Shown piece by piece: positions 20,990 through 62,525 of a DNA stretch of 64,000 bases. Origin of the DNA: Thermocatellispora tengchongensis. GTDB taxonomy: Bacteria > Actinomycetota > Actinomycetes > Streptosporangiales > Streptosporangiaceae. The notes below the pieces were generated by a model. It had not been told where the DNA came from. It did no database searches and worked only from the letters and a program-made list of their open reading frames with translations. Both the position numbers and the translations under genes were made by a program. The stretch is taken from positions 186,001 to 250,000 of the forward strand of contig NZ_JACHGN010000016.1 in assembly GCF_014202315.1 (NCBI RefSeq), in the 5' to 3' direction. The first letter of the stretch is position 1. Every line of letters begins with the position of its first letter.

Positions 20990-21820
20990 TCACCCCTTCA
21001 GGCCGGTGTGCGCCAGGCCCTCGATGAACTGGCGCTGGGCCAGCACGAACACCACCAGGATCGGCAGCGCGGTCATCGTCGCCGCCGCGAGCTGCACGTT
21101 CCACATCGGCCCGCCGTACAGGTCCACGAACTGCGTCAGCGCCTGCGGCAGCGTGAACAGCTCCGGCGAGGACAGGTACACGATCGGCTCCAGGTACAGG
21201 TTCCAGGAGTGCAGGAAGGTGAAGATGGCGACCGCGCCCAGCGCCGGGCGGGCCAGCGGCAGCGCCACCCGGTAGAAGGTGCCGAAGCGGCCCAGCCCGT
21301 CCACCCGCGCGGCCTCCTCCAGCTCGCCGGGCAGGCTGATGAAGAACTGGCGCATGATGAACGTGGCCAGCACGCTGGGCGCGCCCAGGATCGGCACCAC
21401 GATCAGCGGCCAGTGCGTGTTGGTCAGCCCCAGCGTGTGGAACATCTGGAACAGCGGCACGATGGTGACCTCGCTGGGGATCAGCAGCCCGGTGAGCACC
21501 ACCACGAACAGCACGTTCTGCCCCGGGAAGCGGATGCGGGCGAAGGCGTACCCGGCCAGGGCCGCGACCGCCATGGTGCCGGCGGTCACCACGGCGGCGA
21601 TGTAGAGGCTGTTGAAGTACTGCTGGGCGAAGGGCTGGATCTCGAAGACCTGGCGGTAGCTGGAGAAGTCCCAGGTCTGCGGCAGCAGCTTGGGCGGGAA
21701 GGCCAGGATCTCGCTCATCGGCTTGACCGAGGAGGTGACCATCCACCAGGTCGGGAACACGAACGGCACGCACAGCACGCACAGCAGCGCGTACAGCGCG
21801 AGCTTCACCCTATGCCTCAT
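20990..21820 (-). CDS. Carbohydrate ABC transporter permease, MalG/UgpE type
   Basis: The 276-residue inner-membrane protein has six predicted helices and the MalG-type EAA loop EEAARVDGLGRFGTFYRVALPLARP at about residues 185-209. It forms the channel with the second permease, whose gene overlaps it by 11 bases. No ATPase gene is nearby; CUT1 importers in actinomycetes commonly share a distant MsiK-type ATPase. The operon with the binding protein and the FAD oxidoreductase links it to uptake of an unidentified sugar. Confidence 0.92.
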   Translation of the reverse strand: MRHRVKLALYALLCVLCVPFVFPTWWMVTSSVKPMSEILAFPPKLLPQTWDFSSYRQVFEIQPFAQQYFNSLYIAAVVTAGTMAVAALAGYAFARIRFPGQNVLFVVVLTGLLIPSEVTIVPLFQMFHTLGLTNTHWPLIVVPILGAPSVLATFIMRQFFISLPGELEEAARVDGLGRFGTFYRVALPLARPALGAVAIFTFLHSWNLYLEPIVYLSSPELFTLPQALTQFVDLYGGPMWNVQLAAATMTALPILVVFVLAQRQFIEGLAHTGLKG

Positions 21821-22751
21821 TGAAGACCCACTTCCGGCGCAGGCGCCACTGCAGCAGCGTGAGCGCCGCGACGATGAGGAACAGCAGGACCGAGATCGTG
21901 GCGCCGTAGCCGAAGTGATGGAACTGGAACGCCTGCTGGTACAGGTAGTAGATCAGCACGGTGGTGGAGGTGCCGGGACCGCCCTGGGTGAGCACCGCGA
22001 TCTGGGCGAAGACCTGCAGCGACCCGACGACCGTGATGATCGAGGTGAGCAGGATGGTGGGGCTGATCAGCGGGACGGTGATGCGGCGGAACCTGGTCCA
22101 GGCGCCCGCGCCGTCCATCTTGGCGGCCTCGTAGAGCTGGGCGGGCACGCCCTGGAGCGCGGCCAGGAACAGCACCATGTTCAGGCCCACGTTCTTGATC
22201 ACCTGGACCACGATCACCGAGAGCATGGCCGTGGCCTCGCCGCGCAGCCAGTTCGGGCCGTCGATCCCGGCCGCGCCGAGCACGCCGTTGATGCCGCCCT
22301 CGGCCTGCAGCAGGAACTTCCACACGATCGTCCAGGCCACCAGCGAGACCAGCACCGGGGAGAAGAACAGCGTGCGGAACAGCGTCGTGCCGCGCAGGCG
22401 CTGGTTGAGCAGGATCGCCAGTAGCAGCGCCAGGGTCAGGTTCAGCGCCACCAGGCCGGCGGAGAAGATCCCGGTGGCCGCCAGCACGGAGCGCAGGTTG
22501 GCGTCGGCGGCCAGCTTGGCGTAGTTCTCGGCGCCGGTGAACTCGAACGTGCCCGCCAGCACGTTCCACTCCTGCATGCTGTACCAGCCGACCAGGACCA
22601 GCGGCAGCAGCACGAACACCACGCTGCCGGCGAGCTGCGGCGTGATGAACAGGTAGCCCACCAGGTAGTCGCGGCGGCGGATGGTCCAGAAGGGCCGCCG
22701 GGCGGCGGCGCGCTCGGCCACCGCCCGGGTCTCGGCCTCGGTCACGACCAT
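21810..22751 (-). CDS. Carbohydrate ABC transporter permease, MalF/UgpA type
   Basis: This 313-residue membrane protein has an N-terminal cytoplasmic segment, six helices and the EAA loop YEAAKMDGAGAWTRFRRITVPLISP (about residues 215-239). It pairs with the MalG-type permease downstream. It starts at ATG 22751, one base before the end of the binding-protein gene region (22753), so the genes are tightly coupled. Confidence 0.92.
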   Translation of the reverse strand: MVVTEAETRAVAERAAARRPFWTIRRRDYLVGYLFITPQLAGSVVFVLLPLVLVGWYSMQEWNVLAGTFEFTGAENYAKLAADANLRSVLAATGIFSAGLVALNLTLALLLAILLNQRLRGTTLFRTLFFSPVLVSLVAWTIVWKFLLQAEGGINGVLGAAGIDGPNWLRGEATAMLSVIVVQVIKNVGLNMVLFLAALQGVPAQLYEAAKMDGAGAWTRFRRITVPLISPTILLTSIITVVGSLQVFAQIAVLTQGGPGTSTTVLIYYLYQQAFQFHHFGYGATISVLLFLIVAALTLLQWRLRRKWVFNEA

Positions 22752-22752
22752 C

Positions 22753-24018
22753 TCACGCGCCCAGCATCGGCTGGATCTTCGCGCACACGCCGTCCAGGAC
22801 CGCCTTGACGTCGGCGCCCGGCTTCCACAGCGGGTCCAGCGCGGTGCGCACGGTCTGCAGCAGCTCCTCCTGGCCGGTGTGGGTCGGCTTGACCACGCCC
22901 TTGCCGATGCCCTCGATCACGACCTGCTGCAACTGCTCCTGCTTGAGCAGCGGGTTGCTCTTGGCCAGCGTCTCGGCGGTGAGCAGCGACTGGCGCGGCG
23001 GCGGGAAGAACTGGGCGAGCTTGGCGGAGTTGGCCTGGTTGGTGAAGAAGGCCAGGAAGTCGGTGGCCAGCTCGGCGTTGGGCGACCTCTTCAGCACGCC
23101 CACCCCGGCCTGGCCGATCACCGCGTACTCGCCCTTGGGGCCCTTGGGCAGCGGCACCAGGTCCCAGCCGAAGCCGGCCTCCTTCAGGGTGCCGGCGCGG
23201 GAGATCTGCGAGACCGCCATGGCCGCGTCGCCGGCGGTGAAGTCCACGGTGGTGCCGGGGCCGGGCACCGCCTTGTCGGTGAAGACCGACTTGTGGAAGA
23301 ACGTCATGGCCTCGACCATCTCGGGGCTGTTGAAGGTGCAGGTCTTGCCGTCGGCGCTCCAGGCGGAGGCGCCCCAGCCGCCCCAGATCGTGGACAGGTT
23401 CGTCCAGTTCTTGTAGTCGTCGAAGTCCGGGATGACCAGGCCGGCCTTGCCCTTCTTCGCCACGGCCGCGCTCATGGCCATGGCCTTCTCCCAGGTCCAC
23501 TCCCCCGACTTCACCAGGTCGGCCGGGTCGTCCTGGCCGGCGTCCTCGAGCAGGTCGGTGTTGACGAACATGCCGAACGGGGAGGTGGAGAACGGGTAGG
23601 CGTACAGCTCGCCGTCCTTCTCCCACAGCTTGGTCACGCTGGGGATGAGGTCGGCGGCGTTGTCCAGCTTGGCCTTGATCGGGGCCAGCGCGCCGGAGGC
23701 GACGAAGTCGGGGGCCGAGCCCTCCAGGATCCACGCCAGGTCGGGCGGGTTGCCGCCGGCGATCTGGGTGGTGAGCGTGGTGGTGTACGTCTCGGCCGGG
23801 ATCGACTCGAACTTGATCTCGGCGACCTCTGGGTGGGTCTTCTTGTACTCGGCGGCGATCTCGTTCAGCAGCGTCAGGTGCGGCTCGCTGGCGGTCCACA
23901 CCGTCATGCGCAGCGTCTTCGGGCCGGCGGACTGCGCGGGCGTGCCGCCGCCGCCGCACGCGGAGACGGCGAGCACGGACAGGGCCGCGACGGCGGCGAG
24001 CTTCCCGAGTGGTCTCAT
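22753..24018 (-). CDS. Extracellular sugar-binding lipoprotein (CUT1 ABC transporter)
   Basis: The 421-residue protein starts at ATG 24018 with a lipoprotein signal (LAVSACGGG; cysteine at about residue 21). It has the layout of family 1 solute-binding proteins: TLRMTVWTASEPHLTLLNEI, a GGNPPDLAWILEG hinge-side motif, and YAYPFSTSPFGMFVNTDLLE. It would deliver a mono- or oligosaccharide to the two permeases encoded next. The ligand cannot be named. It is likely controlled by the LacI protein at 25727. Confidence 0.92.
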   Translation of the reverse strand: MRPLGKLAAVAALSVLAVSACGGGGTPAQSAGPKTLRMTVWTASEPHLTLLNEIAAEYKKTHPEVAEIKFESIPAETYTTTLTTQIAGGNPPDLAWILEGSAPDFVASGALAPIKAKLDNAADLIPSVTKLWEKDGELYAYPFSTSPFGMFVNTDLLEDAGQDDPADLVKSGEWTWEKAMAMSAAVAKKGKAGLVIPDFDDYKNWTNLSTIWGGWGASAWSADGKTCTFNSPEMVEAMTFFHKSVFTDKAVPGPGTTVDFTAGDAAMAVSQISRAGTLKEAGFGWDLVPLPKGPKGEYAVIGQAGVGVLKRSPNAELATDFLAFFTNQANSAKLAQFFPPPRQSLLTAETLAKSNPLLKQEQLQQVVIEGIGKGVVKPTHTGQEELLQTVRTALDPLWKPGADVKAVLDGVCAKIQPMLGA

Positions 24019-24077
24019 CAGGGTGGTTCTCCTTCTCGGTGGGTCCCCCGAGTGGTGATCTTGGGTCGGTAGCCGGT

Positions 24078-25682
24078 TCAGTAGCCGGTCACGTCCGGCC
24101 AGCGCAGCTCGACCCCGTCGTCGGTCAGGCGCCGCTGGTAGTCCGCCAGGAGCCCGGCCCGCTCCCGTACGGCGTGCGGCGGCACGCCGTTGTCCAGGCA
24201 GAAGGCGGCGAGCGCCCCGGCGGCCTCGCCGATGTTCCACTCCACCGGGTGCAGCCGGTACGCCCCGTTGGTGATGTGGGTGGTGCCGATGTTCTTGCCG
24301 GCGGGCAGCAGGTTCGTCATCCGCTGCGGCAACAGCGCCCCGAGGGGGATCTGGAACGGCGAGCAGCCCACGTCGATGTAGTTGTCGCCGCCGGTGGAGG
24401 GGTGCAGGTCGATGCGGTACATGCCGACCCCGACCGAGTCGGGGTAGGCGACCGCGCCCTTGTCGCCGCGCACCTCCAGCGACAGGTCCTGCTCCACCAC
24501 CGTGTACAGGGCGCGGATGCGGCGCGACTCGCGGATGTAGGGGGCCTGGGCCAGGCCGTCGGCGCCCCCGGTGACGTCGCCGCGCAGCCGCAGGCCGGGA
24601 TAGCCGGTGCCGCCGTCGGGGCGCGGGGCCTCGGTCTGCAGCCAGTACAGCACGCACTTGGACAGCTCGCGGGCGCCGGCCAGGTGCTCGGCGGCGTCGG
24701 GCACGTCGAAGACCGGGCCCTCCAGGTAGTCGATCATCGGCCAGTTCACCAGCGTGATGTCGCTGGCGTACGCGCCGGGGACGAAGTTGCGCCGTGCGGC
24801 GATCCTGCGGAAGGTCCACAGGTCGCCGTCGCCGGGGTTGACCCGCTGGTCGGCGCGGACGGCGAGGGTGTCGTCGTCGGGGTTGGGGGTGAAGGTGCGC
24901 TCGGTGATCTCCAGGGTGCGCGGGCTGGGGCAGCGCCACGACAGCAGCCGGTCGCCCCAGAACGGCGGCTGGTACTCCCGCCAGAAGCCGTAGGAGGCGG
25001 GCCGGTCGATGGTGTGGTCGCCGTCCACGTGGTCCACGGCGAAGCACACCGACACGGCCTGCATGTTCAGCGGCTGCGCCTCCGGCGGGGCGCTGGGCTC
25101 GCCGGTCTCGGCCTGGGACTCGAAGCCGGTGACGTACTCGGTGCCGGTCAGCGGCAGCAGCTCGCCGGTCTCGGTGGCGTCCAGCACGAAGGGGGCGTGC
25201 GCGGTCAGCTCCCCGCCGCCGTCGCGGTGCGCCAGGCGTACGCACGTGACCCGGTCGCCGTCCACCTCGGCCGAGACCGGCCGGTACGGCTGGAGCACCC
25301 GCAGCCGGCCCGAGCCCCGGTAGGGGGCGAGCATGGCCTCGATCACCGCCACGGCCACGCGCGGCTCGTGGCACAGCCGGCTCACGTGCCCCGACCCGGG
25401 GTTGAGCTCGCGCCAGGCGCGGGCGCCCTCGGTCAGCGGGTAGTGGTCACGGTAGTAGCGGCGGATGCCCTCGCGCAGCGCGCGGTAACTGGCGGTGATC
25501 CCGAACCGCTCCACCCAGGAGTGCTCGTCGGGGGGCACGGCCTGGCTGGTGAGCTGGCCGCCCAGCCAGTCGTACTCCTCGGTGAGGACCACCGTGCGGC
25601 CCGCCCGCAGCAGGGCCAGCGCGGCGGCCACGCCGCCCAGCCCGCCGCCGACGACGACCGCGTCCGCCGAAATCTCACGCAC
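24078..25682 (-). CDS. FAD-dependent oxidoreductase (PF12831 FAD_oxidored type)
   Basis: The 534-residue protein begins with a Rossmann FAD-binding motif (DAVVVGGGLGGVAAALALLR, residues 8-27) and a glutamate-ended strand (VVLTEEYDWLGGQLTSQ). It contains APFVLDATETGELLPL and ends with MTNLLPAGKNIGTTHITNGA, a second FAD-contact region. It lacks cysteine disulfide motifs. This family is common in sugar and polysaccharide loci but its reactions are mostly unknown; oxidation of a sugar hydroxyl is plausible. GTG 25682 has a GAAAGG site. It lies directly between the LacI gene and the binding-protein gene. Confidence 0.85.
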   Translation of the reverse strand: MREISADAVVVGGGLGGVAAALALLRAGRTVVLTEEYDWLGGQLTSQAVPPDEHSWVERFGITASYRALREGIRRYYRDHYPLTEGARAWRELNPGSGHVSRLCHEPRVAVAVIEAMLAPYRGSGRLRVLQPYRPVSAEVDGDRVTCVRLAHRDGGGELTAHAPFVLDATETGELLPLTGTEYVTGFESQAETGEPSAPPEAQPLNMQAVSVCFAVDHVDGDHTIDRPASYGFWREYQPPFWGDRLLSWRCPSPRTLEITERTFTPNPDDDTLAVRADQRVNPGDGDLWTFRRIAARRNFVPGAYASDITLVNWPMIDYLEGPVFDVPDAAEHLAGARELSKCVLYWLQTEAPRPDGGTGYPGLRLRGDVTGGADGLAQAPYIRESRRIRALYTVVEQDLSLEVRGDKGAVAYPDSVGVGMYRIDLHPSTGGDNYIDVGCSPFQIPLGALLPQRMTNLLPAGKNIGTTHITNGAYRLHPVEWNIGEAAGALAAFCLDNGVPPHAVRERAGLLADYQRRLTDDGVELRWPDVTGY

Positions 25683-25726
25683 GTGAAAGGCACCTTTCTG
25701 GGTTGTCGGCCGCGCTCGTGGCGCGG

Positions 25727-26737
25727 TCACCGTGTCGCGCCGGACGGCGCGGCCAGCGTCGAGCCCTCCACCGGCTCGCAGGCCAGCAGCTCCTGGGGGG
25801 TGCCGCCGCGTTCGAGCACCTGGGTCAGCAGCTCGACGGCGCGGTGGCCCATCTCCCGGCGCGGGATGCGGAAGCCGGAGAAGTCGATGTCGATGTGGAC
25901 GGGCCGGGTCAGCGCGCCGAGGGCGAGCACCGACAGGTCGGCCGGGACGCTCATGCCGCGCTCCCTGGCCGCCTGCACCAGCGTCACGCCGTCGGCCGAC
26001 TCCTCCACGAACACCGCGGTCACGCCCGCGGCCAGCACGTCCTCCAGGCGGGGCTCGCGCAGGTGGACGCCTTCCACGCCGAGCGCGGCCGTCGCCTCGC
26101 GGAAGCCGCGCATGCGGTCGGCGTAGGACTCCGCGCCCTCGCCCGCGCCCACGTACGCCAGGCGCCGGTGCCCGCGGGCGACCACCCGCTCGGCCAGCTC
26201 GCGGACCGCGGGCGGGTAGTCGGCGCCGACGTACGGCACCGGCCCGCCGGCGTCGTCGCGGCGGCCCACCGACACGAACGGGATGCGCTCGGCGATCAGG
26301 CGGGCCAGGTCGTCGCGGTCGATGGTGCGGCCCAGCAGCACGCACCCGTCGGCCAGGCGCACCCGGCTGTCCTCGCTGAAGATCCGCCGCCGGCCGCCGT
26401 GCGCCTTGCCGCTGGTGAACAGCAGCAGGTCGCACCCGGCCTCCTCGGCGCACTCCTCGATGCCGACCAGGAACGGGTGGTAGAAGTCGGCGCTCGCGGC
26501 CGGGAAGACGGCCTCGTAGGTGAACACGCCGAGTATCCGGTTGCGCCGGTCGGCGAGCCGCCGCGCGACCGGGTCGGCGACGTAGCCGGTCTCGCGGATC
26601 ACCCGCAGGACCCGCTCGCGGGTCTCGGGCGCGATCCGCACCTCGGAGTCGGCCCGGTTGTTGAGCACCAGGGACACCGTCGTCTGGCTCACCCCGGCCA
26701 TGCGGGCGATGTCCTGCTGCGTCAGGCGTCGTATCAC
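25727..26737 (-). CDS. LacI family repressor of the 21-28 kb sugar locus
   Basis: The 336-residue protein starts IRRLTQQDIARMAGVSQTTV with the LacI helix-turn-helix and hinge (about residues 5-60). A periplasmic-binding-like domain follows (FYHPFLVGIEECAEEAGCDL). Two palindromes at 26764 and 26838 in the divergent gap to the PfkB kinase match typical LacI operators with a central CG, so it probably represses both its own operon and the kinase. The inducer is likely the transported sugar or its phosphate. Confidence 0.9.
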   Translation of the reverse strand: MIRRLTQQDIARMAGVSQTTVSLVLNNRADSEVRIAPETRERVLRVIRETGYVADPVARRLADRRNRILGVFTYEAVFPAASADFYHPFLVGIEECAEEAGCDLLLFTSGKAHGGRRRIFSEDSRVRLADGCVLLGRTIDRDDLARLIAERIPFVSVGRRDDAGGPVPYVGADYPPAVRELAERVVARGHRRLAYVGAGEGAESYADRMRGFREATAALGVEGVHLREPRLEDVLAAGVTAVFVEESADGVTLVQAARERGMSVPADLSVLALGALTRPVHIDIDFSGFRIPRREMGHRAVELLTQVLERGGTPQELLACEPVEGSTLAAPSGATR

Positions 26738-26763
26738 GGTGCGTTACATCCCGTCGAAGCTGA

Positions 26764-26775
26764 TAATGCGCATTA
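26764..26775. promoter_or_regulatory. LacI operator 1 (TAATGCGCATTA)
   Basis: This perfect 12-bp palindrome lies 27 bases upstream of the LacI start codon. Its half-site (TAATGCG) is shared with the palindrome at 26838, which supports one regulator. Confidence 0.7.
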
Positions 26776-26837
26776 GTAGCGCGGTGAGGCATCATTCTGA
26801 AACACGCCCCGCACTCCGTCAAGAGCCGGTTTTTCCT

Positions 26838-26857
26838 GGGCTAATTCGCATTAGCCC
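26838..26857. promoter_or_regulatory. LacI operator 2 (GGGCTAAT-TCGC-ATTAGCCC)
   Basis: Perfect 8-bp arms surround TCGC. The core CTAATTCGCATTAG closely matches operator 1. It sits upstream of the PfkB gene in the divergent region, suiting control of both directions or looping between the two sites. Confidence 0.7.
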
Positions 26858-26977
26858 CTTGACGTCGGGCCCCGGTGTGGCGGATGGTTGCCTCGGCCGC
26901 ACCACGACGGACGGTGAACGTGATCCGCCGCAGGGGGTCCTCGCGCCCGCCGCCGGGCCCGGTGGGAGGATGCCGGG

Positions 26978-27886
26978 GTGACGTTCCTGGTGGTGGGTGA
27001 GAGCATCGTCGACCTGATCGGCGCCCCGGGCACCTGGCGGTTCACCGCCGTGGCCGGGGGCAGCCCGATGAACGTGGCGGTGGCGCTGGCGGCGCTGGGG
27101 CGGCCGGTGCGCTTCGCCGGCGAGGCGGGCGCCGACTTCTTCGGCGACCTGCTGCGCGGGCACCTGGAGGCGTACGGGGTGGGCTCCGGCGAGCTGGCCG
27201 AGGCGCCCGCGACCAGCCTGGCCTTCGCCCGGATCGGCGAGGACGGCTCGGCGTCCTACGACTTCCGCTTCCAGTGGCGCCTGCGGGCGCCCATTCCCCT
27301 GGAGGGGGTCTCATGCCTGCACACCGGCTCGCTGGCCGCGCTGGTCGCGCCGGGCGGGGAGCACGTGCGGGCCCTGATGCGGGCCGCGAGCGAGGCCGGG
27401 ATCACGGTGTCCTACGACCCGAACGTACGCCCGTCGCTGCTGGGCGATCACGCCGAGGCGGTGGCGCTGGTGGAGGAGTGCGTGCGGGCCTGCGACCTGG
27501 TCAAGGTGAGCGCCGAGGATCTGGCCTGGCTGTACCCGGGCGAGCCCGGCCTGCGGGTCGCGCGCCGCTGGGCGGATTGGCGCGGGGGGCGGCCGGTGGT
27601 GGTGACCCGGGGCGCGGAGGGGGCCGCGGCGGTCGCGGGCGACGCGTTGATCACCTGTCCGGCGCCGCGGGTGCGGGTGGCCGACACGGTGGGCGCGGGC
27701 GACACCTTCACCGCGGCGTACCTGTCGGTGCTGGCCGGGGCCGAGCCCACGCCCGAGCGCGTCGCGGAGGCCCTGCGGTACGGCTGCGCCGCCGCGGGGG
27801 TGGCCTGCACCCGCGCCGGGGCGGTGCCCCCGGCGCCCGGGGAGATCGCCGAGCTGCTGCCCTCGCTCGCCGCGACCGTGGCGTGA
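26978..27886 (+). CDS. PfkB/ribokinase-family sugar kinase (fructokinase-like)
   Basis: The 302-residue kinase has the PfkB signatures: AGGSPMNVAVALAALGRPVR (residues 27-46) and the C-terminal DTVGAGDTFTAAYL with the catalytic Asp in GAGD (about residues 229-242). It would phosphorylate a ketose, ribose-like or other sugar with ATP in the cytoplasm. The GTG start follows a GGGAGG site. Its divergent position across the LacI operators ties it to the transporter and FAD oxidoreductase, so its substrate may be the oxidised or imported sugar. Confidence 0.9.
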   Translation: MTFLVVGESIVDLIGAPGTWRFTAVAGGSPMNVAVALAALGRPVRFAGEAGADFFGDLLRGHLEAYGVGSGELAEAPATSLAFARIGEDGSASYDFRFQWRLRAPIPLEGVSCLHTGSLAALVAPGGEHVRALMRAASEAGITVSYDPNVRPSLLGDHAEAVALVEECVRACDLVKVSAEDLAWLYPGEPGLRVARRWADWRGGRPVVVTRGAEGAAAVAGDALITCPAPRVRVADTVGAGDTFTAAYLSVLAGAEPTPERVAEALRYGCAAAGVACTRAGAVPPAPGEIAELLPSLAATVA

Positions 27887-29021: not shown

Positions 29022-30149
29022 ATGAGGTTCGGACGGATCGCGACGGTCGCATCGGCGATCGCGCTCGCCGCCACGATGACGGCCTGCGGGTCGAGCGAGA
29101 AGACCGTGGACGTCGAGGCCAGGTCCGGCGACAACAGCGGCGCCCTGGTGGGGGTCACGATGCCCACCAAGTCGTCCGAGCGCTGGATCAGCGACGGCGA
29201 GAACGTCAAGGCCGGGCTGGAGAAGCTGGGCTACAAGGTGGACCTGCAGTACGCCGAGAACGACATCCCCACGCAGGTCAACCAGATCGAGAACCAGATC
29301 ACCAAGGGCGCCAAGCTGCTGATCGTGGCCTCGATCGACGGCACCGCGCTGACCACCCAGCTCCAGCAGGCCGCCGACAACAAGATCCCGGTCATCGCCT
29401 ACGACCGGCTGATCCGCAACAGCCCGAACGTCGACTACTACACCACCTTCGACAACTTCAAGGTCGGCGTGCAGCAGGCCACCTCGCTGCTGGTGGGGCT
29501 GAAGGTGAAGAACGCCGACGGGTCGGAGGGCTCGGCCAAGGGGCCGTTCAACATCGAGCTGTTCGCCGGCTCACCCGACGACAACAACGCCACGTTCTTC
29601 TTCAACGGCGCGATGTCGGTGCTCCAGCCGTACATCGACAAGGGCGTGCTGACGGTCAAGAGCGGCCAGACCGACTTCAAGACGGTGGCGATCCTGCGCT
29701 GGGACCCGGCCACGGCGCAAAAGCGCATGGAGGACATCCTCACCAAGACCTACACCGGTGACGCGAAGGTGGACGGCGTGCTCTCGCCGTACGACGGCCT
29801 GTCGATCGGCATCCTGTCGGCGCTGAAGAGCAACGGGTACGGCACCTCCGGCCAGCCCTACCCGGTCGTGACCGGCCAGGACGCCGAGCTGGCCTCGGTG
29901 AAGTCGATCATCGCCGGCGAGCAGTACTCCACGATCTTCAAGGACACCCGCGAGCTGGCCAAGGTGACGGTCACCATGGCCGACACCGTGCTCAAGGGCG
30001 GCAAGCCCGAGGTGAACAACACGGCCGACTACAACAACGGCGTGAAGGTCGTCCCGTCGTACCTGCTGGATCCGGTGATCGTGGACAAGACCAACTACGA
30101 GAAGATCCTCGTCGGCAGCGGCTACTACACCGCCGACAAGCTGGGCTGA
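29022..30149 (+). CDS. chvE: ChvE-type sugar-binding lipoprotein (multiple monosaccharide ABC transporter)
   Basis: The 375-residue protein has a lipoprotein signal ([11 protein letters not shown]; cysteine about residue 22). Its family 4 periplasmic-binding fold shows [39 protein letters not shown] and [20 protein letters not shown]. These segments are characteristic of ChvE, which binds L-arabinose, D-xylose, galactose and related aldoses. It is first in an operon with the MmsA-type ATPase and MmsB-type permease. LacI operators at 28795 and 28904 control the promoter. Confidence 0.92.
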
Positions 30150-30214
30150 GAGCACCTGCGGCATCGGGGGCGGGCGCCGCGCGTCCCGCCCCCGCCTGAG
30201 AGGGCCTGGAGACA

Positions 30215-31741
30215 GTGAGCGACCACATCCTGCTGATGCGCGGGATAACCAAGACCTTCCCCGGCGTGACCGCGCTGCAGGACGTCAACCTCTCGGTGCG
30301 GCGCGGTGAGATCCACGCGATCTGCGGCGAGAACGGCGCGGGGAAGTCCACGCTGATGAAGGTGCTGTCGGGGGTGTACCCGCACGGCTCGTACGAGGGC
30401 GAGATCGTCTTCGACGGCGAGCCGTGCCGCTTCGGCGGCATCCGCGACAGCGAGCACGCCGGGATCGTGATCATCCACCAGGAGCTGGCGCTGTGCCCGC
30501 AACTGTCGATCGCGGAGAACATCTTCCTCGGCAACGAGCGGGCCTCGCGCTGGCTGATCGACTGGAACCGCACCAACCACGAGGCCGCGCGGCTGATGGA
30601 GCGGGTGGGCCTGCGCGAGAGCCCGGTGACCCAGGTCGCCGACATCGGCGTGGGCAAGCAGCAGCTCGTGGAGATCGCCAAGGCGTTGTCGAAGGAGGTG
30701 AAGCTGCTCATCCTGGACGAGCCGACGGCGGCGCTGAACGACGAGGACTCCGCGCACCTGCTGGACCTGCTGCGCGGGCTGCGCGACACCGGCATCACCT
30801 GCGTGATCATCTCGCACAAGCTGAACGAGATCATCGAGATCGCCGACTCGATCACCATCCTGCGCGACGGGCGCACGGTGGACACCCTGGACCGGGCCGA
30901 CGGGGTCACCGAGGAGCGGATCATCGCCGGCATGGTGGGGCGCGACCTGGAGCACCGCTTCCCGCCGCACGAGCCGCGCATCGGCGCGGAGGTGCTGCGG
31001 GTGGAGGACTGGACCGTGCACAGCCCCACCCAGCCGGGCCGCAAGGTGGTGGACGGCGCGTCGCTGACGCTGCGGGCCGGCGAGATCGTGGGGCTGGCCG
31101 GGCTGATGGGCGCGGGCCGCACCGAGCTGGCGATGAGCGTGTTCGGCCGGGCGTACGGGGTGAACATCTCCGGGCGGCTGTACAAGGACGGCAGGCGCAT
31201 CGAGCTGCGCAGCGTGCGCGACGCGATCGACCACGGCATCGCGTACGCCACCGAGGACCGCAAGCGCTACGGGCTGAACCTGATCGAGGACATCAAGCGG
31301 AACATCTCCGCCGCCGGGCTGCCCGGCCTGGCCCGGCACGGCTGGGTGAACGAGATGGAGGAGTACCGGGTCGCCGAGGGGTTCCGCCGGAGCATGAACA
31401 TCAAGGCGCCCGGCGTGACCAGCACCGTGGGCAAGCTCAGCGGCGGCAACCAGCAGAAGGTCGTGCTGTCGAAGTGGATCCACACCGACCCGGACGTGCT
31501 GATCCTGGACGAGCCGACCCGCGGCATCGACGTGGGCGCCAAGTACGAGATCTACACGATCATCAACCGGCTGGCCGACGAGGGGAAGGCGATCTTGGTG
31601 ATCTCCTCGGAGCTGCCGGAGCTGCTGGGCCTGTGCGACCGGATCTACACCCTGTCGCAGGGCCGGATCACCGGCGAGGTCCCGCGCGAGGAGGCGACCC
31701 AGGAACGCCTCATGTACCACATGACGATCGGACAGGAGTAG
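30215..31741 (+). CDS. mmsA: MmsA/GguA, sugar ABC transporter ATP-binding protein
   Basis: The 508-residue CUT2 ATPase has two tandem nucleotide-binding halves. The first has Walker [10 protein letters not shown] (about residues 39-47) and Walker [14 protein letters not shown]. The second has a degenerate Walker A ([11 protein letters not shown]) but retains the signature [14 protein letters not shown] and [14 protein letters not shown]. One weak site is normal for the RbsA/MglA/MmsA type. It powers sugar import with the ChvE-type binding protein and the MmsB-type permease encoded on either side. Confidence 0.94.
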
Positions 31742-31746
31742 CCCCG

Positions 31747-33018
31747 ATGAGCAGCATCTCGCCCGCCGGCGTCGAGGCCGGGCCGAAGGACGGCAAGGAA
31801 GGCGGCTCGGGCCCGCCGCGCCGGCCCGGCCGCGTGGCGCTGGGCAGTCTGTCGATCAACGTGCGGCAGAGCGGCATCTACATCGCCTTCGCGCTGATCG
31901 TCGTGCTGTTCACCGTGCTGACCGACGGCGCCATGCTCCAGCCGCAGAACATCTCCAACATCATCGTGCAGAACTCCTACATCCTGATCCTCGCGGTCGG
32001 GATGATCCTGATCATCATCGCCGGGCACATCGACCTGTCGGTGGGATCGGTGGTGGCGGTCACCGGCGCGGTGGCGGCGGTGCTCATGGTCGACTTCGGC
32101 GTGCCGTGGCCGCTCGCGCTGCTCATCACGCTGGTCGTGGGCGGCCTGATCGGGGCCTGGCAGGGGTTCTGGATCGCCTACTTCGGCATCCCGTCGTTCA
32201 TCGTCACCCTGGCCGGCATGCTGCTGTTCCGCGCGCTGACGCTGACGGTGCTGGGCAACCAGGGCATCGGCCCCTTCCCCGACGCGGTGCGCACGCTGTC
32301 CAACGGGTTCACCGACGGCTACCTCGGCAACATCGGCCTGGGCGTGCTGGGCGGGGCCGACCTGTTCAGCCTGCTGGTGGGCCTGATGGCGGTGGCGGGC
32401 ATGGTCGCGGCGCAGTGGCGGACCCGCACCGCCCGCGCCGGCTACGGCCAGGGCGTGGACCCGCTGCCGGTGTTCGTGCTGAAGACGGCCGCGGGCGCGG
32501 CGCTGATCATGGCGGTGGTCGTGCAGCTCGCCCGGTTCAAGAACCTGCCGTGGGTGCTGGTGCTGCTGGCGGTGCTGGTGCTGGGCTACTCGCTGCTGGC
32601 CAACCGCTCGGTGTTCGGCCGGCGCATCTACGCCGTGGGCGGCAACCTCCAGGCGGCGGTGCTGTCGGGCATCAAGGTCAAGTCGGTGGTGTTCTGGATC
32701 TTCGTGAACATGGGCGTGCTGGCGGCCATGGCCGGGATCATCTTCGCCGGCCGGCTGAACCAGGCGGGCCCCACCGCGGGCAACTCCTTCGAGCTGGACG
32801 CCATCGCGGCGGCGTTCATCGGCGGCGCGGCGGTGCAGGGCGGCGTCGGCAAGGTCGTGGGCGCGATCACCGGCGGCCTGATCATGGGCGTGATCAACAA
32901 CGGCATGTCGCTGATCGGCTCCCCCAGCGAGCGGGTCATGCTGGTCAAGGGCATCGTCCTGCTCGCCGCGGTCGCCTTCGACGTGTGGACCAAGCGCCGC
33001 GCCGGCGCGGCCCGCTGA
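31747..33018 (+). CDS. mmsB: MmsB/GguB, sugar ABC transporter permease
   Basis: The 423-residue integral membrane protein has about 10 hydrophobic helices and the CUT2 permease signature (IIAGHIDLSVGSVVAVTGAV, about residues 94-113), plus ELDAIAAAFIGGAAVQGGVG near the C-terminus. It has a charged 35-residue cytoplasmic N-terminus and the central insertion typical of GguB compared with RbsC. The start at 31747 is five bases after the mmsA stop. Confidence 0.94.
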   Translation: MSSISPAGVEAGPKDGKEGGSGPPRRPGRVALGSLSINVRQSGIYIAFALIVVLFTVLTDGAMLQPQNISNIIVQNSYILILAVGMILIIIAGHIDLSVGSVVAVTGAVAAVLMVDFGVPWPLALLITLVVGGLIGAWQGFWIAYFGIPSFIVTLAGMLLFRALTLTVLGNQGIGPFPDAVRTLSNGFTDGYLGNIGLGVLGGADLFSLLVGLMAVAGMVAAQWRTRTARAGYGQGVDPLPVFVLKTAAGAALIMAVVVQLARFKNLPWVLVLLAVLVLGYSLLANRSVFGRRIYAVGGNLQAAVLSGIKVKSVVFWIFVNMGVLAAMAGIIFAGRLNQAGPTAGNSFELDAIAAAFIGGAAVQGGVGKVVGAITGGLIMGVINNGMSLIGSPSERVMLVKGIVLLAAVAFDVWTKRRAGAAR

Positions 33019-34166: not shown

Positions 34167-35651
34167 CTACAGGCCCTGGGCCAGGCGATAGTACGCCTGG
34201 TTCCAGCGCAGCTCGTTGGCGAAGCCCCGCGGGGTGGTGGCGGAGTCGATGACCAGCAGCTCCACCTCCAGCATGGTGGCCAGGTCGCTCAGCTCCTCGG
34301 TGCCGACCGCCGCCGACAGCACGGTGTGGTGCGGAGCGCCCGCCATCAGCCACGACTCGGCCGAGGTGCGCAGGTCGGGCCGGGGCCGCCACACCGCGCG
34401 CGCCACCGGCAGCTTCGGCAGCGGCTCCAGCGGCGGCACCACGTCGATCTCGTTGGCCACCAGGCGGAACCGGTCGCCCATGTCGGCCAGGCCCGCGACC
34501 ACGGCCGGGCCGGGGGCGGCGTCGAAGACCAGGCGCACCGGGTCCTCCCGGTTGCCGATGCCCAGCGGGTGGATCTCGCAGGAGGGGGTGTCCGCGGCGA
34601 TGGAGGGGCACACCTCCAGCATGTGCGCGCCCAGGATCAGCTCCTCCCCCGGCGCCAGGTGGTAGGTGTAGTCCTCCATGAACGAGGTGCCGCCGGACAG
34701 CCCGGCCGACATGACCTTCAGCGTGCGCAGCAGCACCGAGGTCTTCCAGTCGCCCTCGCCGCCGAAGCCGTAGCCGTCGGCCATCAGCCGCTGCACCGCC
34801 AGCCCGGGGAGCTGCCGCAGCCCGCCCAGGTCCTCGAAGTTGGTGGTGAACGCGCGGAACCCGCCCGCCTCCAGGAAGGCGCGCAGCCCCAGCTCGATCC
34901 GGGCGGCGTAGCGCAGCGAGTCGTGCCGCTCGCCGTCGGCGCGCAGCTCGGGCGCGACGCGGTAGAGGTCCTCGTACTCCTTGACCAGGGCGGTGACGTC
35001 GGCGTCGGCGACGGCGTCCACCACCTCCACCAGGTCGTTGACGCCGTAGGTGTTCACCGAGACGCCGAAGCGGAGCTGGGCCTCGACCTTGTCGCCCTCG
35101 GTGACGGCCACGTCGCGCATGTTGTCGCCGAAGCGGGCCAGCTTCAGCGTGGCCAGCTCGGCCCGGCCGGCCGCGGCCCGCGCCCAGGCGCCGATCCGCG
35201 CGGCCACGGCCGGGTCGCTGACGTGCCCGGCGACGGTCTTGCGGGGCACGCCCAGGCGCGACTGGATGTAACCGAACTCGCGGTCGCCGTGCGCGGCCTG
35301 GTTGAGGTTCATGAAGTCCATGTCGATGGACGACCACGGCAGGTCGCGGTTGGCCTGGGTGTGCAGGTGCAGCAGCGGCTTGCGCAGCGCGTCCAGGCCG
35401 GCGATCCACATCTTGGCCGGGGAGAAGGTGTGCATCCACGCGATCAGGCCGAGGCAGGCGGGGTCGGCGTTGGCCTCCAGGCAGGCCGTGCGGATGGCGG
35501 CGGCGTCGGTGAGGACCGGCCGCCACACCACCTCCACCCCCGGCAGCGCCGCGTCCAGGGCGGCGGCGATCTCCCGTGACTGCTCGGCGACCTGGGCCAG
35601 CGTGGCCTCGCCGTACAGGCCCTGGCTGCCGGTCAGGAACCACACCTTCAC
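34167..35651 (-). CDS. araA: AraA, L-arabinose isomerase
   Basis: The 494-residue enzyme converts L-arabinose to L-ribulose using Mn2+. It starts [17 protein letters not shown], has [17 protein letters not shown], the [18 protein letters not shown] segment and [20 protein letters not shown], which contains one of the metal-binding glutamates (GGEGDWK). The others are supplied by [10 protein letters not shown] and [11 protein letters not shown] 35651 has a GAGGAG site and overlaps the araD stop by 4 bases, so translation of the two is coupled. The length is typical (about 500). Confidence 0.97.
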
Positions 35652-36307
35652 TTCGCGCTCCTCTGGCCGTAGACGTTCTGATAGCGGTCGAACAGGCTGT
35701 CGATGTGGTGAGGCTCGATCGGCACCGGCCGGCCGAGCTGGCGGCTGATGTGCACGGTGCGGGCGACGTCCTCGCACATCACGGCGGCCTTGACCGCCGC
35801 CTTGGGCGACTCGCCGATGGTGAACACGCCGTGGTTCTGCATCAGCACGGCGCGCGAGCGGTGCCCGGCCAGCGTCTTGACGATGCCCCGGCCGATGTCG
35901 TCGCCGCCGATCAGCGCGAACGGGCCGACCGGGATCGGGCCGCCGAACTCGTCGGCCATCGCGGTCAGCACGCACGGGATCGGCTCGCCGCGGGCGGCCC
36001 AGGCGGTGGCGTAGGTGGAGTGGGTGTGCACCACCCCGCCGACCTCGGGCATGTGCCGGTAGACGTAGGCGTGCGCCTCGGTGTCGCTGGAGGGGGCGTG
36101 GTCACCCTCCACGAGCTTGCCGTCCAGGTCGCACACCACCATGGACTCGGGGGTCAGCTCGTCGTAGGACACGCCGCTGGGTTTGATCACGAACAGGTCC
36201 TCGCCCGGCACCCGGCCGGACACGTTGCCCGCCGTCCAGGCCACCAGGTCGTAGCGGACCAGTTCGGCGTGCAGGCGGCAGACCTCCCTGCGGGTCTCCG
36301 TTATCAC
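35648..36307 (-). CDS. araD: AraD, L-ribulose-5-phosphate 4-epimerase
   Basis: The 219-residue class II aldolase-fold enzyme produces D-xylulose 5-phosphate. Its zinc ligands are visible as [13 protein letters not shown] (HxH) and [13 protein letters not shown] (H), and it has the TAGNVSGR and [11 protein letters not shown] phosphate-binding segments. GTG 36307 is preceded by AAGGAG. It sits between araB and araA in an araB-araD-araA operon. Confidence 0.96.
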
Positions 36308-36321
36308 TTGCTCTCCTTGTT

Positions 36322-38019
36322 TCAGATGGCGGTGTCGTCTGAGACGGCGGTGTCGTCTGAGATGGCGGTGTCCGCGGTGGCGGCGTTGCGGATGGCGCGA
36401 AGGCGGTGCAGCATCGCGCCGTCGGCGAAGTGGTCGTGCAGCCGGCGGTACTCGGCGTACAGCCGGTCGTAGACGTCGGCGCGGGCGGCGTCGGGCAGGT
36501 ACGCGGCCGGGGTGCGCTTGCCCATCGCGGCCGAGGCGGCGGTGATGTCCGGGTACGCCCCGGCGGCGACGGCGGCGTGGATCGCCGAGCCGAGCGCCGG
36601 GCCCTGGTCGGAGGCGATCACCGACAGCGGGCGGCGCAGCACGTCGGCGTACACCTGCATCAGGAAGCGGTTCTTCAGCAGGCCGCCCGCGGCGATGAAC
36701 TCCTCCACCGGCACCCCGGAGTCCTCGAAGGTCTCCACGATGACGCGGGTGCCGAAGGCGGTGGCCTCGATCAGGGCGCGGTAGACGTCCTCGGGGCGGG
36801 TGGCGAGGGTCTGGCCGACGATGACGCCGGAGAGGTTGTGGTCCACCAGCACCGAACGGTTGCCGTTGTGCCAGTCCAGCGCGACCAGGCCGTGGGCGCC
36901 CACGGGCTGGCGCTCGGCCAGGGAGGTGAGGTGCTCGTGGATCGTCTCCCCGCGCGCGGCGGCCCGCTCGGCGTAGGAGGCGGGCACGCCGGTGCGGGCG
37001 AACCAGGCGAAGATGTCGCCCACGCCCGACTGGCCCGCCTCGTACCCCCACAGGCCCGGCACGATGCCGTCGCGCACCACGCCGCACATGCCCGGCACCT
37101 CGGCGAGCCGGTCGGCGGGCATGACGTGGCAGGTGGAGGTGCCCATGATGGCGACCATCTGGCCGGGGCGCACCGCGTCGGCGGCGGCGGAGGTGACGTG
37201 GGCGTCCACGTTGCCCACCGCGACCGCGATGCCCTCGGGCAGGCGGGTCCACTCCGCCGCCTGCGCGGTCAGCCGCCCGGCCAGGCCGCCGAGCGGGGCG
37301 ACCTCGCGGGCGAGCTTGGCGGTGAAGCCGGCGAAGGCGGGGTTCAGCGCGGCCAGGAAGTCCGCGGAGGGGTAGGCGCCGTCCTGGTAGATGCCCTTGT
37401 ACCCGGCGGTGCAGATGTTGCGGGTCTCCACGCCGGTGAGCTGCCAGATGATCCAGTCGGCCGCCTCGATCCACCGCTCGGCTCGGGCGTAGAGCTCCGG
37501 GTCCTCCTCCAGCACCTGAAGGCCCTTGGCGAACTCCCACTCCGAGGAGATCTTGCCGCCGTAGCGGCGCAGCCAGGGCTCCCCGCGGCTCTCGGCCAGC
37601 TCGTTGATCCGGTCGGCGTGCGGCTGGGCGGCATGGTGCTTCCACAGCTTGGGCCAGGCGTGCGGCCGGTCGGGAAACAGCTCGCAGAGCGGGGTGCCGC
37701 CGGCGGTGGCCGGCAGCACCGTGCAGGCGGTGAAGTCGGTGCCCACGCCGATCACCTTCGAGGCCGGCACCCCGGCCACGGCCAGCGCCTTGGGCACGGC
37801 GGTGCGCAGCACGTCGCGCCAGTCCTCGGGCGACTGCAACGCCCAGTCGGGGCCGAGGCGGACCCCGGAGCCCGGCAGCTCCTCCTCGATCACCCCGTGG
37901 GCGTACTCGTGGACGGCGCTGCCCAGCTCCGCCCCGTCCGAGACGCGCACCACGACGGCGCGCCCGGACAAGGTGCCGAAATCGATCCCGACGACGTACG
38001 AGTCAGCGTTAGCGCTCAC
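36322..38019 (-). CDS. araB: AraB, L-ribulokinase
   Basis: The 565-residue FGGY kinase phosphorylates L-ribulose. It has YVVGIDFGTLSGRAVVVRVS (residues 8-27), GVGTDFTACTVLP, AGYKGIYQDG, the FGGY-N core and EEFIAAGGLLKNRFLMQVYA near the C-terminus, as in AraB. The start codon GTG 38019 is itself part of a LacI operator (38008-38020). The last 16 residues are two and a half copies of a hexapeptide (DTA-I/V-SD) encoded by an 18-bp tandem repeat. This tail looks like a recent slippage extension beyond the family end. Confidence 0.96.
   Translation of the reverse strand: MSANADSYVVGIDFGTLSGRAVVVRVSDGAELGSAVHEYAHGVIEEELPGSGVRLGPDWALQSPEDWRDVLRTAVPKALAVAGVPASKVIGVGTDFTACTVLPATAGGTPLCELFPDRPHAWPKLWKHHAAQPHADRINELAESRGEPWLRRYGGKISSEWEFAKGLQVLEEDPELYARAERWIEAADWIIWQLTGVETRNICTAGYKGIYQDGAYPSADFLAALNPAFAGFTAKLAREVAPLGGLAGRLTAQAAEWTRLPEGIAVAVGNVDAHVTSAAADAVRPGQMVAIMGTSTCHVMPADRLAEVPGMCGVVRDGIVPGLWGYEAGQSGVGDIFAWFARTGVPASYAERAAARGETIHEHLTSLAERQPVGAHGLVALDWHNGNRSVLVDHNLSGVIVGQTLATRPEDVYRALIEATAFGTRVIVETFEDSGVPVEEFIAAGGLLKNRFLMQVYADVLRRPLSVIASDQGPALGSAIHAAVAAGAYPDITAASAAMGKRTPAAYLPDAARADVYDRLYAEYRRLHDHFADGAMLHRLRAIRNAATADTAISDDTAVSDDTAI
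36325..36370. repeat. 18-bp tandem repeat at the araB 3' end
   Basis: Copies GATGGCGGTGTCGTCTGA and GACGGCGGTGTCGTCTGA are followed by a partial GATGGCGGTGTC. The unit is in frame and encodes the DTAISD/DTAVSD tail of AraB, ending at the stop codon. Confidence 0.85.
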
Positions 38020-38020
38020 A
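38008..38020. promoter_or_regulatory. Arabinose-regulon LacI operator overlapping the araB start codon
   Basis: On the minus strand the 13 bases TGTGAGCGCTAAC include the araB GTG start codon and the codons for its first residues (MSAN). The identical 13-mer lies upstream of the YtfQ-like gene at 42724. A bound repressor would block elongation or initiation right at the start codon. Confidence 0.75.
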
Positions 38021-38041
38021 AAACGCTCCCCCCAAAACAGG

Positions 38042-39037
38042 TCATTTGCTCCGCCCGGAAATCAGGCGCTGGAGCAGGATGAAGGCGAACAACAGCAGTC
38101 CGATGAAGATCTTGGTCCACCACGAGCTCAGCGTGCCCTCGAAGCTGATGATCGTCTGGATCAGCCCGAGCACCAGCACGCCGAGCACGGTCCCGAGCAG
38201 GTATCCCGAGCCCCCGGTCAGCAGGGTGCCGCCGATGACGACGGCGGCGATCGCGTCCAGCTCCATGCCGACCGCGTGCAGCCCGTAGCCCGAGAGCATG
38301 TAGAACGACAGCAGCAGGCCGCCGAGCGCGGAGCAGAACCCGCTGATCCCGTACACGGCGATCTTGGTGCGGGCCACGGGCAGGCCCATGAGCAGGGCCG
38401 ACTGCTCGCCGCCGCCCACGGCGTACACGTTGCGGCCCAGGCGCGTGTAGTGCAGCACGTACGCCGCCGCCAGCACCACCACCAGCCCGATCAGCACGCT
38501 GGGCGAGATCCACATCTCGGCGAACAGGTCGATCCTGGTCTGCGCGAGCGCGGTGAAAGTGGGGTCGGTGATGGAGATCGACTCGGTGCCGATCGTGTAG
38601 CACAGGCCGCGGGCCAGGAACATGCCGGCCAGCGTGACGATGAACGGCTGGATCTCGAAGTAGTGGATGATCGCGCCCATGGCCAGGCCGAGCACCGTGC
38701 CGATCGCCAGGACCAGGACCATGACGGCGGGCGCGGGCCAGGAGCCCCCGGCGAGCAGGCTCGCGGAGATCATCGTGGACAGCGCGACCACCGAGCCGAC
38801 CGACAGGTCGATGCCGCCGGTGAGGATCACGAAGGTCATGCCGACGGCGACGACGAGCAGGAAGGCGTTGTCGATGAAGACGTTCAGCACGACCTGGCCG
38901 GTGACGAAGCCCTCGTAGCGCACCCCGCCGGCGGCGAACATCGCGGCGAACAGGCACGCGGTGACCAGCACGGGGACGTACTTGCGCGGGACCGCCGCGC
39001 GGCGGGCCAGGACCGCCGGGGAGAACGCGGCCATCAT
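38042..39037 (-). CDS. yjfF: YjfF-type sugar ABC transporter permease
   Basis: The 331-residue membrane protein has the CUT2 signature VILTGGIDLSVGSVVALSTM (about residues 68-87). Its C-terminus (FEGTLSSWWTKIFIGLLLFA) closely matches E. coli YjfF, a galactofuranose permease. ATG 39037 follows a GGAGG site and overlaps the upstream permease stop. With the genes at 39034, 40098 and 41719 it forms a complete YtfQRT-YjfF importer. The arabinose context argues for pentofuranose transport. Confidence 0.92.
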   Translation of the reverse strand: MMAAFSPAVLARRAAVPRKYVPVLVTACLFAAMFAAGGVRYEGFVTGQVVLNVFIDNAFLLVVAVGMTFVILTGGIDLSVGSVVALSTMISASLLAGGSWPAPAVMVLVLAIGTVLGLAMGAIIHYFEIQPFIVTLAGMFLARGLCYTIGTESISITDPTFTALAQTRIDLFAEMWISPSVLIGLVVVLAAAYVLHYTRLGRNVYAVGGGEQSALLMGLPVARTKIAVYGISGFCSALGGLLLSFYMLSGYGLHAVGMELDAIAAVVIGGTLLTGGSGYLLGTVLGVLVLGLIQTIISFEGTLSSWWTKIFIGLLLFAFILLQRLISGRSK

Positions 39038-61727: not shown

Positions 61728-62525
61728 ATGGACCCGGGTTCCGCGGACAAGGCCGCCGCAGAGCTGCTGGCGGCGTACGCCAGTGGCAATCCGATCCAGC
61801 CACTTACCACCACATATCCAGATCTGTCGGTCGAGGACGCCTACGCCATCCAGCGCGCCCAGATCGAGGTCTTCCTGGAGCGCGGCGCCCGGATCAAGGG
61901 GCACAAGGTCGGGCTGACCTCGGCCGCGATGCAGCGCCAGCTCGGCGTGGACCAGCCCGACTACGGCCACCTGCTGGACACCATGTTCCACCTGGACGGC
62001 GCGCCCATCGACACCGGCCGCTTCATCCAGCCCAGGATCGAGCCGGAGATCGCCTTCGTGCTGCGCCGCCCCCTGGCCGGCCCCGGCGTGACCGCGGCCG
62101 ACGCGGTCGCCGCGGTCGACTTCGTGCTGCCCGCGCTGGAGATCATCGACTCCCGGATCGCCGACTGGCGGATCACCCTGGCCGACACGATCGCCGACAA
62201 CGCCTCCAGCGGCGGCGTGGTGCTCGGCAACCGCCCGGTCCGCCTGGACGCCGTGGACCTGGTCCTGGCCGGGTGCCTGCTGCACCGCAACGGCGCCCTG
62301 ATCGACACCGGGGCGGGCGGCGCGGTGCTCGGCTCCCCGCTCAACGCCCTGGTCTGGCTGGCCAACGTGCTCGGCGAGCAGGGCGTGACCCTGGAGGCCG
62401 GGCACGTCGTCCTGCCCGGCTCGATCACCGCCGCGATCCCGGTGGCGCCGGGCGACGTCGTCACCGCCACCCTGGCCGGAATCGGCACCGTCACCGCCCG
62501 CTTCGCGGCAGAGGAGGCCAGGTGA
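61728..62525 (+). CDS. 2-keto-4-pentenoate (2-hydroxypenta-2,4-dienoate) hydratase
   Basis: The 265-residue protein is a full FAH-superfamily hydratase (MhpD/HsaE/BphH): [31 protein letters not shown] with the metal-ligand glutamates, [11 protein letters not shown] and GQ-type lid residues. It adds water to the dienoate made by meta-cleavage hydrolases, giving 4-hydroxy-2-oxo acids for the aldolase. A GAGAGGA site precedes ATG 61728. It is first in a three-gene overlapping operon. Confidence 0.93.

Follow-up and report, generated by a model that had tools for sequence, protein, structure and literature searches.

What does a flavoenzyme do inside a bacterial sugar-import operon, and to which sugar? 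The question is raised by a locus at positions 20990-27886 of a 64,000-nucleotide stretch of the Thermocatellispora tengchongensis genome (assembly GCF_014202315.1, contig NZ_JACHGN010000016.1, positions 186,001 to 250,000), hereafter called the window, in which an enzyme of Pfam family PF12831 (FAD_oxidored; FAD, flavin adenine dinucleotide) is encoded between a LacI-family repressor and a CUT1-type importer. By computational analysis we found a module of repressor, flavoenzyme and importer with its own gene order and operator, both of which we regard as practically certain, and identified the genes behind the other operator copies. Some of these genes, in other parts of the genome, encode secreted enzymes that degrade polysaccharides; an initial annotation of the window had not seen them. 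The whole is read as a LacI regulon for a sugar from extracellular polysaccharides, which would be imported and then oxidised by the flavoenzyme; we give this reading an even chance. The type of locus is already known, and it is the enzyme that lacks an assigned reaction.

A conserved importer-plus-flavoenzyme module

Genes were predicted by codon-scored gene calls and families were assigned by Pfam or NCBIfam profile matches. The features of the locus are as follows.

25727-26737, minus strand: LacI-family repressor, first gene of the block; PF00356 (LacI helix-turn-helix) and PF13377 (Peripla_BP_3)
24078-25682, minus strand: FAD_oxidored flavoenzyme, 534 amino acids (aa); PF12831, 344.9 bits
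22753-24018, minus strand: CUT1 solute-binding protein (SBP); SBP_bac_8 and SBP_bac_1
21810-22751, minus strand: CUT1 permease A (PermA); BPD_transp_1
20990-21820, minus strand: CUT1 permease B (PermB); BPD_transp_1
26978-27886, plus strand: PfkB sugar kinase, fructokinase-like, divergent neighbour; PF00294, 134.2 bits
26764-26775: operator 1, TAATGCGCATTA, a perfect CG-centred palindrome, 27 bp upstream of LacI
26841-26854: operator 2, CTAATTCGCATTAG, exact, with one unpaired position, about 105 bp upstream of LacI

The genes for LacI, the flavoenzyme, the SBP and the two permeases form a tight run on the minus strand (20990-26737), in which an alternative in-frame start of the flavoenzyme at 25730 is possible, giving a protein of 550 aa. 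An extracytoplasmic SBP together with two BPD_transp_1 permeases makes up a CUT1 importer, and no ATPase gene was detected within the five-gene block among the open reading frames of the window. Every element named by the initial annotation, that is, an importer without ATPase, an FAD enzyme, a LacI repressor and a divergent kinase, is thus present at 20990-27886.

The initial annotation had also proposed a gene-neighbourhood check of the oxidoreductase, which was carried out by scanning bacterial genomes with the flavoenzyme and examining the best 80 of 583 confirmed loci, 60 of them actinobacterial and 20 proteobacterial by their record titles (the gene content of one locus, L119, was counted by tblastn). 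The order LacI-FAD-SBP-PermA-PermB on one strand was kept in 74 of the 80, showing that the oxidoreductase is, as had been claimed, a genuine member of the gene block. Among the six exceptions, two (L060 and L094) run off contig ends and four carry the FAD gene without a transporter, either with LacI (L046 and L062) or without it (L051 and L074). The module is spread over Actinomycetota, Pseudomonadota and Deinococcota. An ATPase gene of the UgpC/MsmX kind lies within 8 kb of the module in 21 loci, including 19 of the 20 proteobacterial and 2 of the 60 actinobacterial ones, a distribution consistent with use of a shared ATPase by the importer in the window.

The partners of the module vary. 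Within 8 kb, the protein families designated c6 and c7 were detected in 24 and 15 of the 80 loci, respectively, NanE in 12, ROK kinases in 10, DUF4127 in 9 and a TIM-like protein of Devosia in 6. Other companions were also seen: in two Nonomuraea loci (L054, 14570-14830; L056, 14629-14886) the module is followed by a small gene that by eye looks TusA-like, and in three loci (L204, 8298-10676; L205, 8279-10687; L241, 5858-8236) a gene divergent from the module LacI encodes a protein of some 800 aa that is apparently secreted and has no Pfam family.

The predicted operator of the LacI repressor

Both palindromes in the intergenic spacer between the LacI and PfkB genes have a CG centre. Operator 2 fits the search pattern exactly, and ATAATGCGCATTAG at 26763-26776, which covers operator 1, fits it with one mismatch. 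The pattern search at the locus gave 4 strand-matches, compared with a mean of 0.11 in 100 shuffles. The initial annotation had described two shared and near-identical operators; the two sites stand, while near-identity does not, TAATGCGCATTA and TAATTCGCATTA being merely similar.

Loci with the motif TAATNCGNATTA upstream of LacI (up to 300 bp upstream of the gene or up to 60 bp inside it) number 70 of 76 and extend from Nonomuraea to Agrobacterium and Variovorax; this count omits L119, for which there are no gene calls, and L051, L074 and L094, which have no LacI beside the FAD gene. The 80 loci together span 1.62 Mb and hold 109 sites, 100 of them in such LacI-proximal regions. Six of the remaining nine are just beyond the limit, 301-346 bp before LacI and 120-277 bp before a divergent gene for secreted c6, and of the last three, one has no gene start nearby and two belong to L119. 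No TAATNCGNATTA was detected in 200 base-shuffled sets of the LacI-proximal regions, the shuffle preserving base content only. Judging from this placement, TAATNCGNATTA appears to be the operator of the LacI repressor itself, and the palindromes described by the initial annotation are conserved.

Operator-bearing genes elsewhere in the genome

In the 11.65-Mb genome the motif TAATNCGNATTA occurs at 6 places and the reversed control pattern at none. Two of the six sites are those of the window, and each of the remaining four precedes, by 75-194 bp, a gene for c6, c7, a glycoside hydrolase family 2 (GH2) protein or a second LacI. The c6 protein (site L185) is 70% identical to its relatives, carries an apparent signal peptide and is called GH43-like, a loose label, because its match to Glyco_hydro_43 is below the cut-off. 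The c7 homologue (site L186) is at 61%. c7 has no Pfam family over the cut-off. In a low-confidence structural model of c7 (mean predicted local distance difference test score, pLDDT, 58.6), Foldseek ranks 1-36 are all polysaccharide lyases, with query template-modelling (TM) scores of 0.27-0.45, making c7 a candidate polysaccharide lyase. The GH2 protein (site L183; 1293 aa) is apparently secreted and has beta-mannosidases as its best PDB matches. The second LacI (site L184) is at 67%.

In 20 relatives, a search with a slightly longer pattern detected a site in 19 and the control in none. Off-locus sites in relatives precede c6 (genome G238) and a LacI-c7 pair (G206). Another site (G165, contig C2) precedes a 1176-aa protein with a CBM6 domain, for which no catalytic family was found, and one (G224, C56) lies, by coordinates, between the LacI and SBP genes of a locus with an FAD paralogue. 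Co-regulation of the module with the secreted enzymes would follow from such an arrangement of sites. The c6 family also accompanies a second kind of import system: in L132, L133, L136, L258 and L259 it is found with an FAD relative (62-64%), Hydantoinase_A (Pfam-tested in L132) and a DctM-like permease.

The flavoenzyme

The match to PF12831 is full-length (344.9 bits against a cut-off of 27; profile positions 1-414 of 416), no signal peptide is evident, and the AlphaFold2 model has a mean pLDDT of 95.1 and a predicted TM-score of 0.94. Matches to PDB sequences are mainly to the short N-terminal FAD-binding part, and Foldseek and VIA-align returned many tied, partial matches to flavoprotein families; because so many families are tied, the reaction cannot be read from structural relatives. 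Searches of PDB by sequence and structure found no solved relative beyond the FAD part, and no ligand-bound relative was found. An alignment of 46 sequences has 73 invariant positions, of which 32 are Arg, Asp, Glu, His or Trp.

Two further close paralogues in the same genome (57 and 58%) stand in loci with GH38-type and GH3 genes. More distant relatives are found with DHDPS (dihydrodipicolinate synthase), BNR, MGH1-like, GH92, Hydantoinase_A or NanE genes. They occur in sugar loci of Bacillota and Bacteroidota, for instance with NanE, ROK and Gfo/Idh/MocA genes in Mesobacillus and after SusC/SusD in Parabacteroides, and also with an importer and LacI on Deinococcota plasmids. From this company, PF12831 appears to be a family of recurrent catabolic flavoenzymes and not a single-sugar family. 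The initial annotation had recognised no standard pathway here, and we likewise found none that matches the flavoenzyme module. In L124 (7178-12055) of this genome, three PF12831 genes stand in a row with a GH38-type gene and another importer.

PL8 lyases, xanthan and other partner genes

One relative, genome G349, joins the module to a polysaccharide lyase of family 8 (PL8). Its locus L242 carries the module beside a xanthan-lyase-like PL8 gene, with an AXE1 esterase at the end of the block. The operator occurs just twice in this genome, both times in L242: one site lies between LacI (about 90-100 bp) and the divergent PL8 (about 235 bp), and the other just before the FAD gene. PL8 and module stand there under one motif, which is absent from the rest of G349. 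Against xanthan lyase this PL8 reaches 442 bits, compared with 346 for the next kind of PL8. It keeps an arginine aligned with the xanthan lyase arginine that we take to be Arg612 (the title of PDB 2e24 names an R612A mutant).

Elsewhere in the same class, the module lies beside a pectate-lyase-like beta-helix protein (L252 and L254), and in a more divergent relative (L244; FAD enzyme 55%, LacI 35%) GH2 and ROK genes follow the permeases. The window has a PL8 gene of its own, about 30 kb from the module.

55757-58069, minus strand: PL8 polysaccharide lyase, without an operator

It is closest to a "putative secreted lyase" (2wco, 752 bits) and to chondroitin AC lyase, and shows a gap at the position of the xanthan lyase arginine. 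No xanthan lyase was found in the locus or regulon of this genome, none of the 6 operator sites being at either of its PL8 matches.

A published xanthan region on a plasmid of Paenarthrobacter ilicis 6C (GenBank CP173686) encodes, in this order, PL8, an N-acetylglucosamine kinase, manA, LacI, two permeases, an SBP, an FAD-dependent oxidoreductase and LacI, followed by GH38, GH3, a second importer and GH9 (PMC12772297). Proteins of the region were overabundant on xanthan, and SBP 003842 was significantly so already at an optical density (OD) of 0.6. In Table 2 of that report, the kinase, manA, the FAD oxidoreductase, the first SBP and the two LacI are given no counterpart in Microbacterium XT11, and one of the two permeases is given one at 34.7%. 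GH88 is absent from the region, and its authors consider it very likely that a novel or secondary enzyme activity takes off glucuronic acid (PMC12772297). A xanthan lyase of Paenibacillus is reported to free pyruvylated mannose (PMC12827396), and the 2026 Paenibacillus taichungensis paper does not use the word oxidoreductase but has two words that begin with FAD.

A proposed pathway and its substrate

We propose that secreted enzymes carrying the operator would cut a sugar from an acidic polysaccharide, the candidates here being the GH43-like protein, the lyase-fold candidate and the beta-mannosidase-like GH2, and that in G349 the xanthan-lyase-like PL8 would be the secreted enzyme that releases it. 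The CUT1 importer would take the released sugar into the cell, where the FAD_oxidored enzyme would perform the single intracellular step that is conserved; most likely it would oxidise the sugar at a ring hydroxyl or at the anomeric carbon. LacI would be relieved by the sugar or by a product, and the steps after oxidation would vary between hosts. The substrate, the oxidation and the order of steps are what we infer from the genes and sites described above.

Terminal beta-mannose is the sugar that xanthan lyase frees, and enzymes of the beta-mannosidase type do the same; manno sugars are the substrates of ManA, of NanE and of some ROK kinases. Because the varying partners of the module include a xanthan lyase, a beta-mannosidase-type GH2, NanE with ROK and, in the published locus, manA, a manno-configured substrate (mannose, pyruvylated mannose or a sugar of the N-acetylmannosamine, ManNAc, type) is favoured, with a likelihood somewhat short of even. 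The sole small product of the PL8 in the G349 locus would be the terminal, often pyruvylated, mannose.

We also considered whether the module serves in general in a pathway of sialic acid or ManNAc, as the NanE and ROK counts suggest, and rejected this, since this genome lacks both NanE and DUF4127 and most loci lack both. Literature combining DUF4127 with an oxidoreductase was not found.

Several observations weigh against the proposed regulon and its substrate. In most of the 80 loci the mannose and ManNAc genes listed above are all missing, and NanE was not found in this genome. The PL8 of the window itself is of the hyaluronan/chondroitin kind and has no operator. The assignment of c7 as a lyase depends on a poor model (mean pLDDT 58.6), and residue-level evidence for the reaction of the flavoenzyme was not obtained. 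Relatives of the FAD enzyme at 40-70% identity stand in differing loci, with a DHDPS aldolase, Hydantoinase_A, GH3 or GH38, which speaks against a single substrate for the whole family. Among the operator sites of relatives, three (G112 C23, G224 C44 and G194 C2) have no adjacent sugar gene. The exact motif is present in just 6 of 20 more divergent loci of the same class and in 3 of 10 plasmid loci, and because it is often missing, L244, L245, L252 and L254 are tied to their partners by adjacency. The link to P. ilicis consists of gene order and gene names, and the abundance cited from there is that of the SBP, not of the FAD enzyme.

Alternative pathways

The flavoenzyme could instead take off or process an unsaturated uronic acid left by a lyase on an oligosaccharide, taking the place of a GH88 unsaturated glucuronyl hydrolase, oxidation of the allylic C3 hydroxyl leading to breakage of the glycosidic bond by elimination. 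Lyase or lyase-like partners fit such a role (the PL8 in L242, the beta-helix proteins in L252 and L254, and c7 with its poor model), as do the lack of a GH88-family match in G349, where PL8 and module are combined, and the glucuronic-acid-removing activity postulated for P. ilicis (PMC12772297). Microbacterium XT11, however, also lacks GH88, yet its genes as listed in the same report include no FAD oxidoreductase (PMC12772297), and 7 of 10 flavoenzyme genomes, including the present one, have a GH88-family match. In addition, both operators of G349 are in L242, where no backbone-cutting enzyme was recognised, so that the regulon may never make an oligosaccharide. We consider this role unlikely. 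The same low probability is given to a more general form, in which the PF12831 enzyme unmasks a lyase product by oxidation, either breaking the bond at an unsaturated uronic acid without GH88 or opening pyruvylated mannose. To our knowledge, no enzyme is described that carries out oxidative sugar unmasking of this kind.

Another route would oxidise an aldose at C1 to the aldonate, to be followed by an enolase-superfamily dehydratase and a DHDPS-type aldolase in a sequence resembling the Entner-Doudoroff pathway. An MR_MLE protein is encoded in L242 and enolase-like proteins, by eye, in L134 and L140; DHDPS-type genes accompany FAD relatives in L128-L131, L135 and L257 (family confirmed for L129 only), and in Agrobacterium salinitolerans an annotated mannonate dehydratase lies about 9 kb from the FAD gene. 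On the other hand, no such genes were recognised, by eye, among the clusters common to at least 4 of the 80 loci, and an aldonate route would not need NanE, ROK or manA as partners. Its probability is accordingly set lower still, and the regulon for a polysaccharide-derived, possibly manno-configured sugar remains our preferred reading.

The initial annotation's pathway has the sugar oxidised after import and the oxidation product passed on to the divergent PfkB kinase for phosphorylation, all under the same operators. This is very improbable, since the kinase, even with its start only about 124 bp beyond operator 2 and with different kinases in other loci (ROK, or the N-acetylglucosamine kinase of P. 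ilicis; PMC12772297), is in none of the 80 loci, is fructokinase-like and has a 68% copy in another sugar locus.

The PfkB kinase

The absence of PfkB from the 80 related loci holds for flanks of as much as 10 kb at either end (E ≤ 1e-5). Close homologues (E ≤ 1e-60) were detected in 2 of 60 relatives, one of these being the window's own genome, which has two copies. The second copy, the one at 68% identity, adjoins a different CUT1 set, and around the copy in the other relative (G090) no sugar operon was seen by eye. The best NCBIfam match of the kinase is still fructokinase NF006957, at 115.2 bits and thus well below the equivalog cut-off of 450. Because of its absence from the 80 loci, its rarity among the relatives and its second copy in a different sugar locus, the kinase is most likely a chance neighbour outside the module. 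It may also have been recruited to the locus recently; among the relatives found by the searches there is none from the window's own genus. In some relatives the kinase gene present is instead one of the ROK type, and phosphorylation after oxidation by another kinase, for example of the ROK type, is possible.

About 1.1 kb past the kinase, a ChvE-type multiple-monosaccharide ABC importer is encoded (29022-33018, plus strand), with an SBP over the NCBIfam cut-off and, by eye, a LacI-like gene next to it.

Other genes of the window

At 34167-41609 (minus strand), flanked by LacI-like genes, are genes that by eye resemble those for L-arabinose isomerase, ribulose-5-phosphate epimerase, ribulokinase and a CUT2 importer. 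The end of the window, 61728-63999 (plus strand), by eye resembles the beginning of a meta-cleavage gene set (hydratase, acetaldehyde dehydrogenase and aldolase) beside an IclR-like gene.

Significance and comparison with known systems

We know of no reaction for the PF12831 flavoenzymes, and the present analysis connects the family with a regulon whose operator is mapped and whose partner enzymes are secreted. Assignment of regulon and substrate would aid annotation, since 85 of 297 genomes in the order have members of this gene family (counting paralogues, at E ≤ 1e-40).

The enzyme resembles the PF12831 family over its full length, and the name of that Pfam entry assigns no reaction. The ycj-type pathway of E. 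coli and other 3-keto-glycoside pathways also combine an importer and a sugar oxidoreductase under a LacI regulator. In contrast to the flavoenzyme of the present locus, those pathways use NAD-dependent Gfo/Idh/MocA or zinc dehydrogenases; Gfo/Idh/MocA genes are found near FAD relatives in Mesobacillus and Deinococcus.

The local regulons of LacI-family repressors (PMC4052901) share with this locus an autoregulated LacI and a palindromic operator beside a sugar operon; unlike the window locus, they are described in a main text that uses neither oxidoreductase nor FAD as a word or the beginning of one. GH88-less degradation of xanthan by actinobacteria has a published missing step, and one such locus, that of P. 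ilicis 6C, lists an FAD oxidoreductase by the same kind of importer (PMC12772297). As compared by gene list, the P. ilicis region differs in having its own PL8, GH38, GH3, GH9, manA and kinase genes, none of which is adjacent in the window, and agrees with the window locus in that two permeases, an SBP, an FAD-dependent oxidoreductase and LacI adjoin in this order (PMC12772297).

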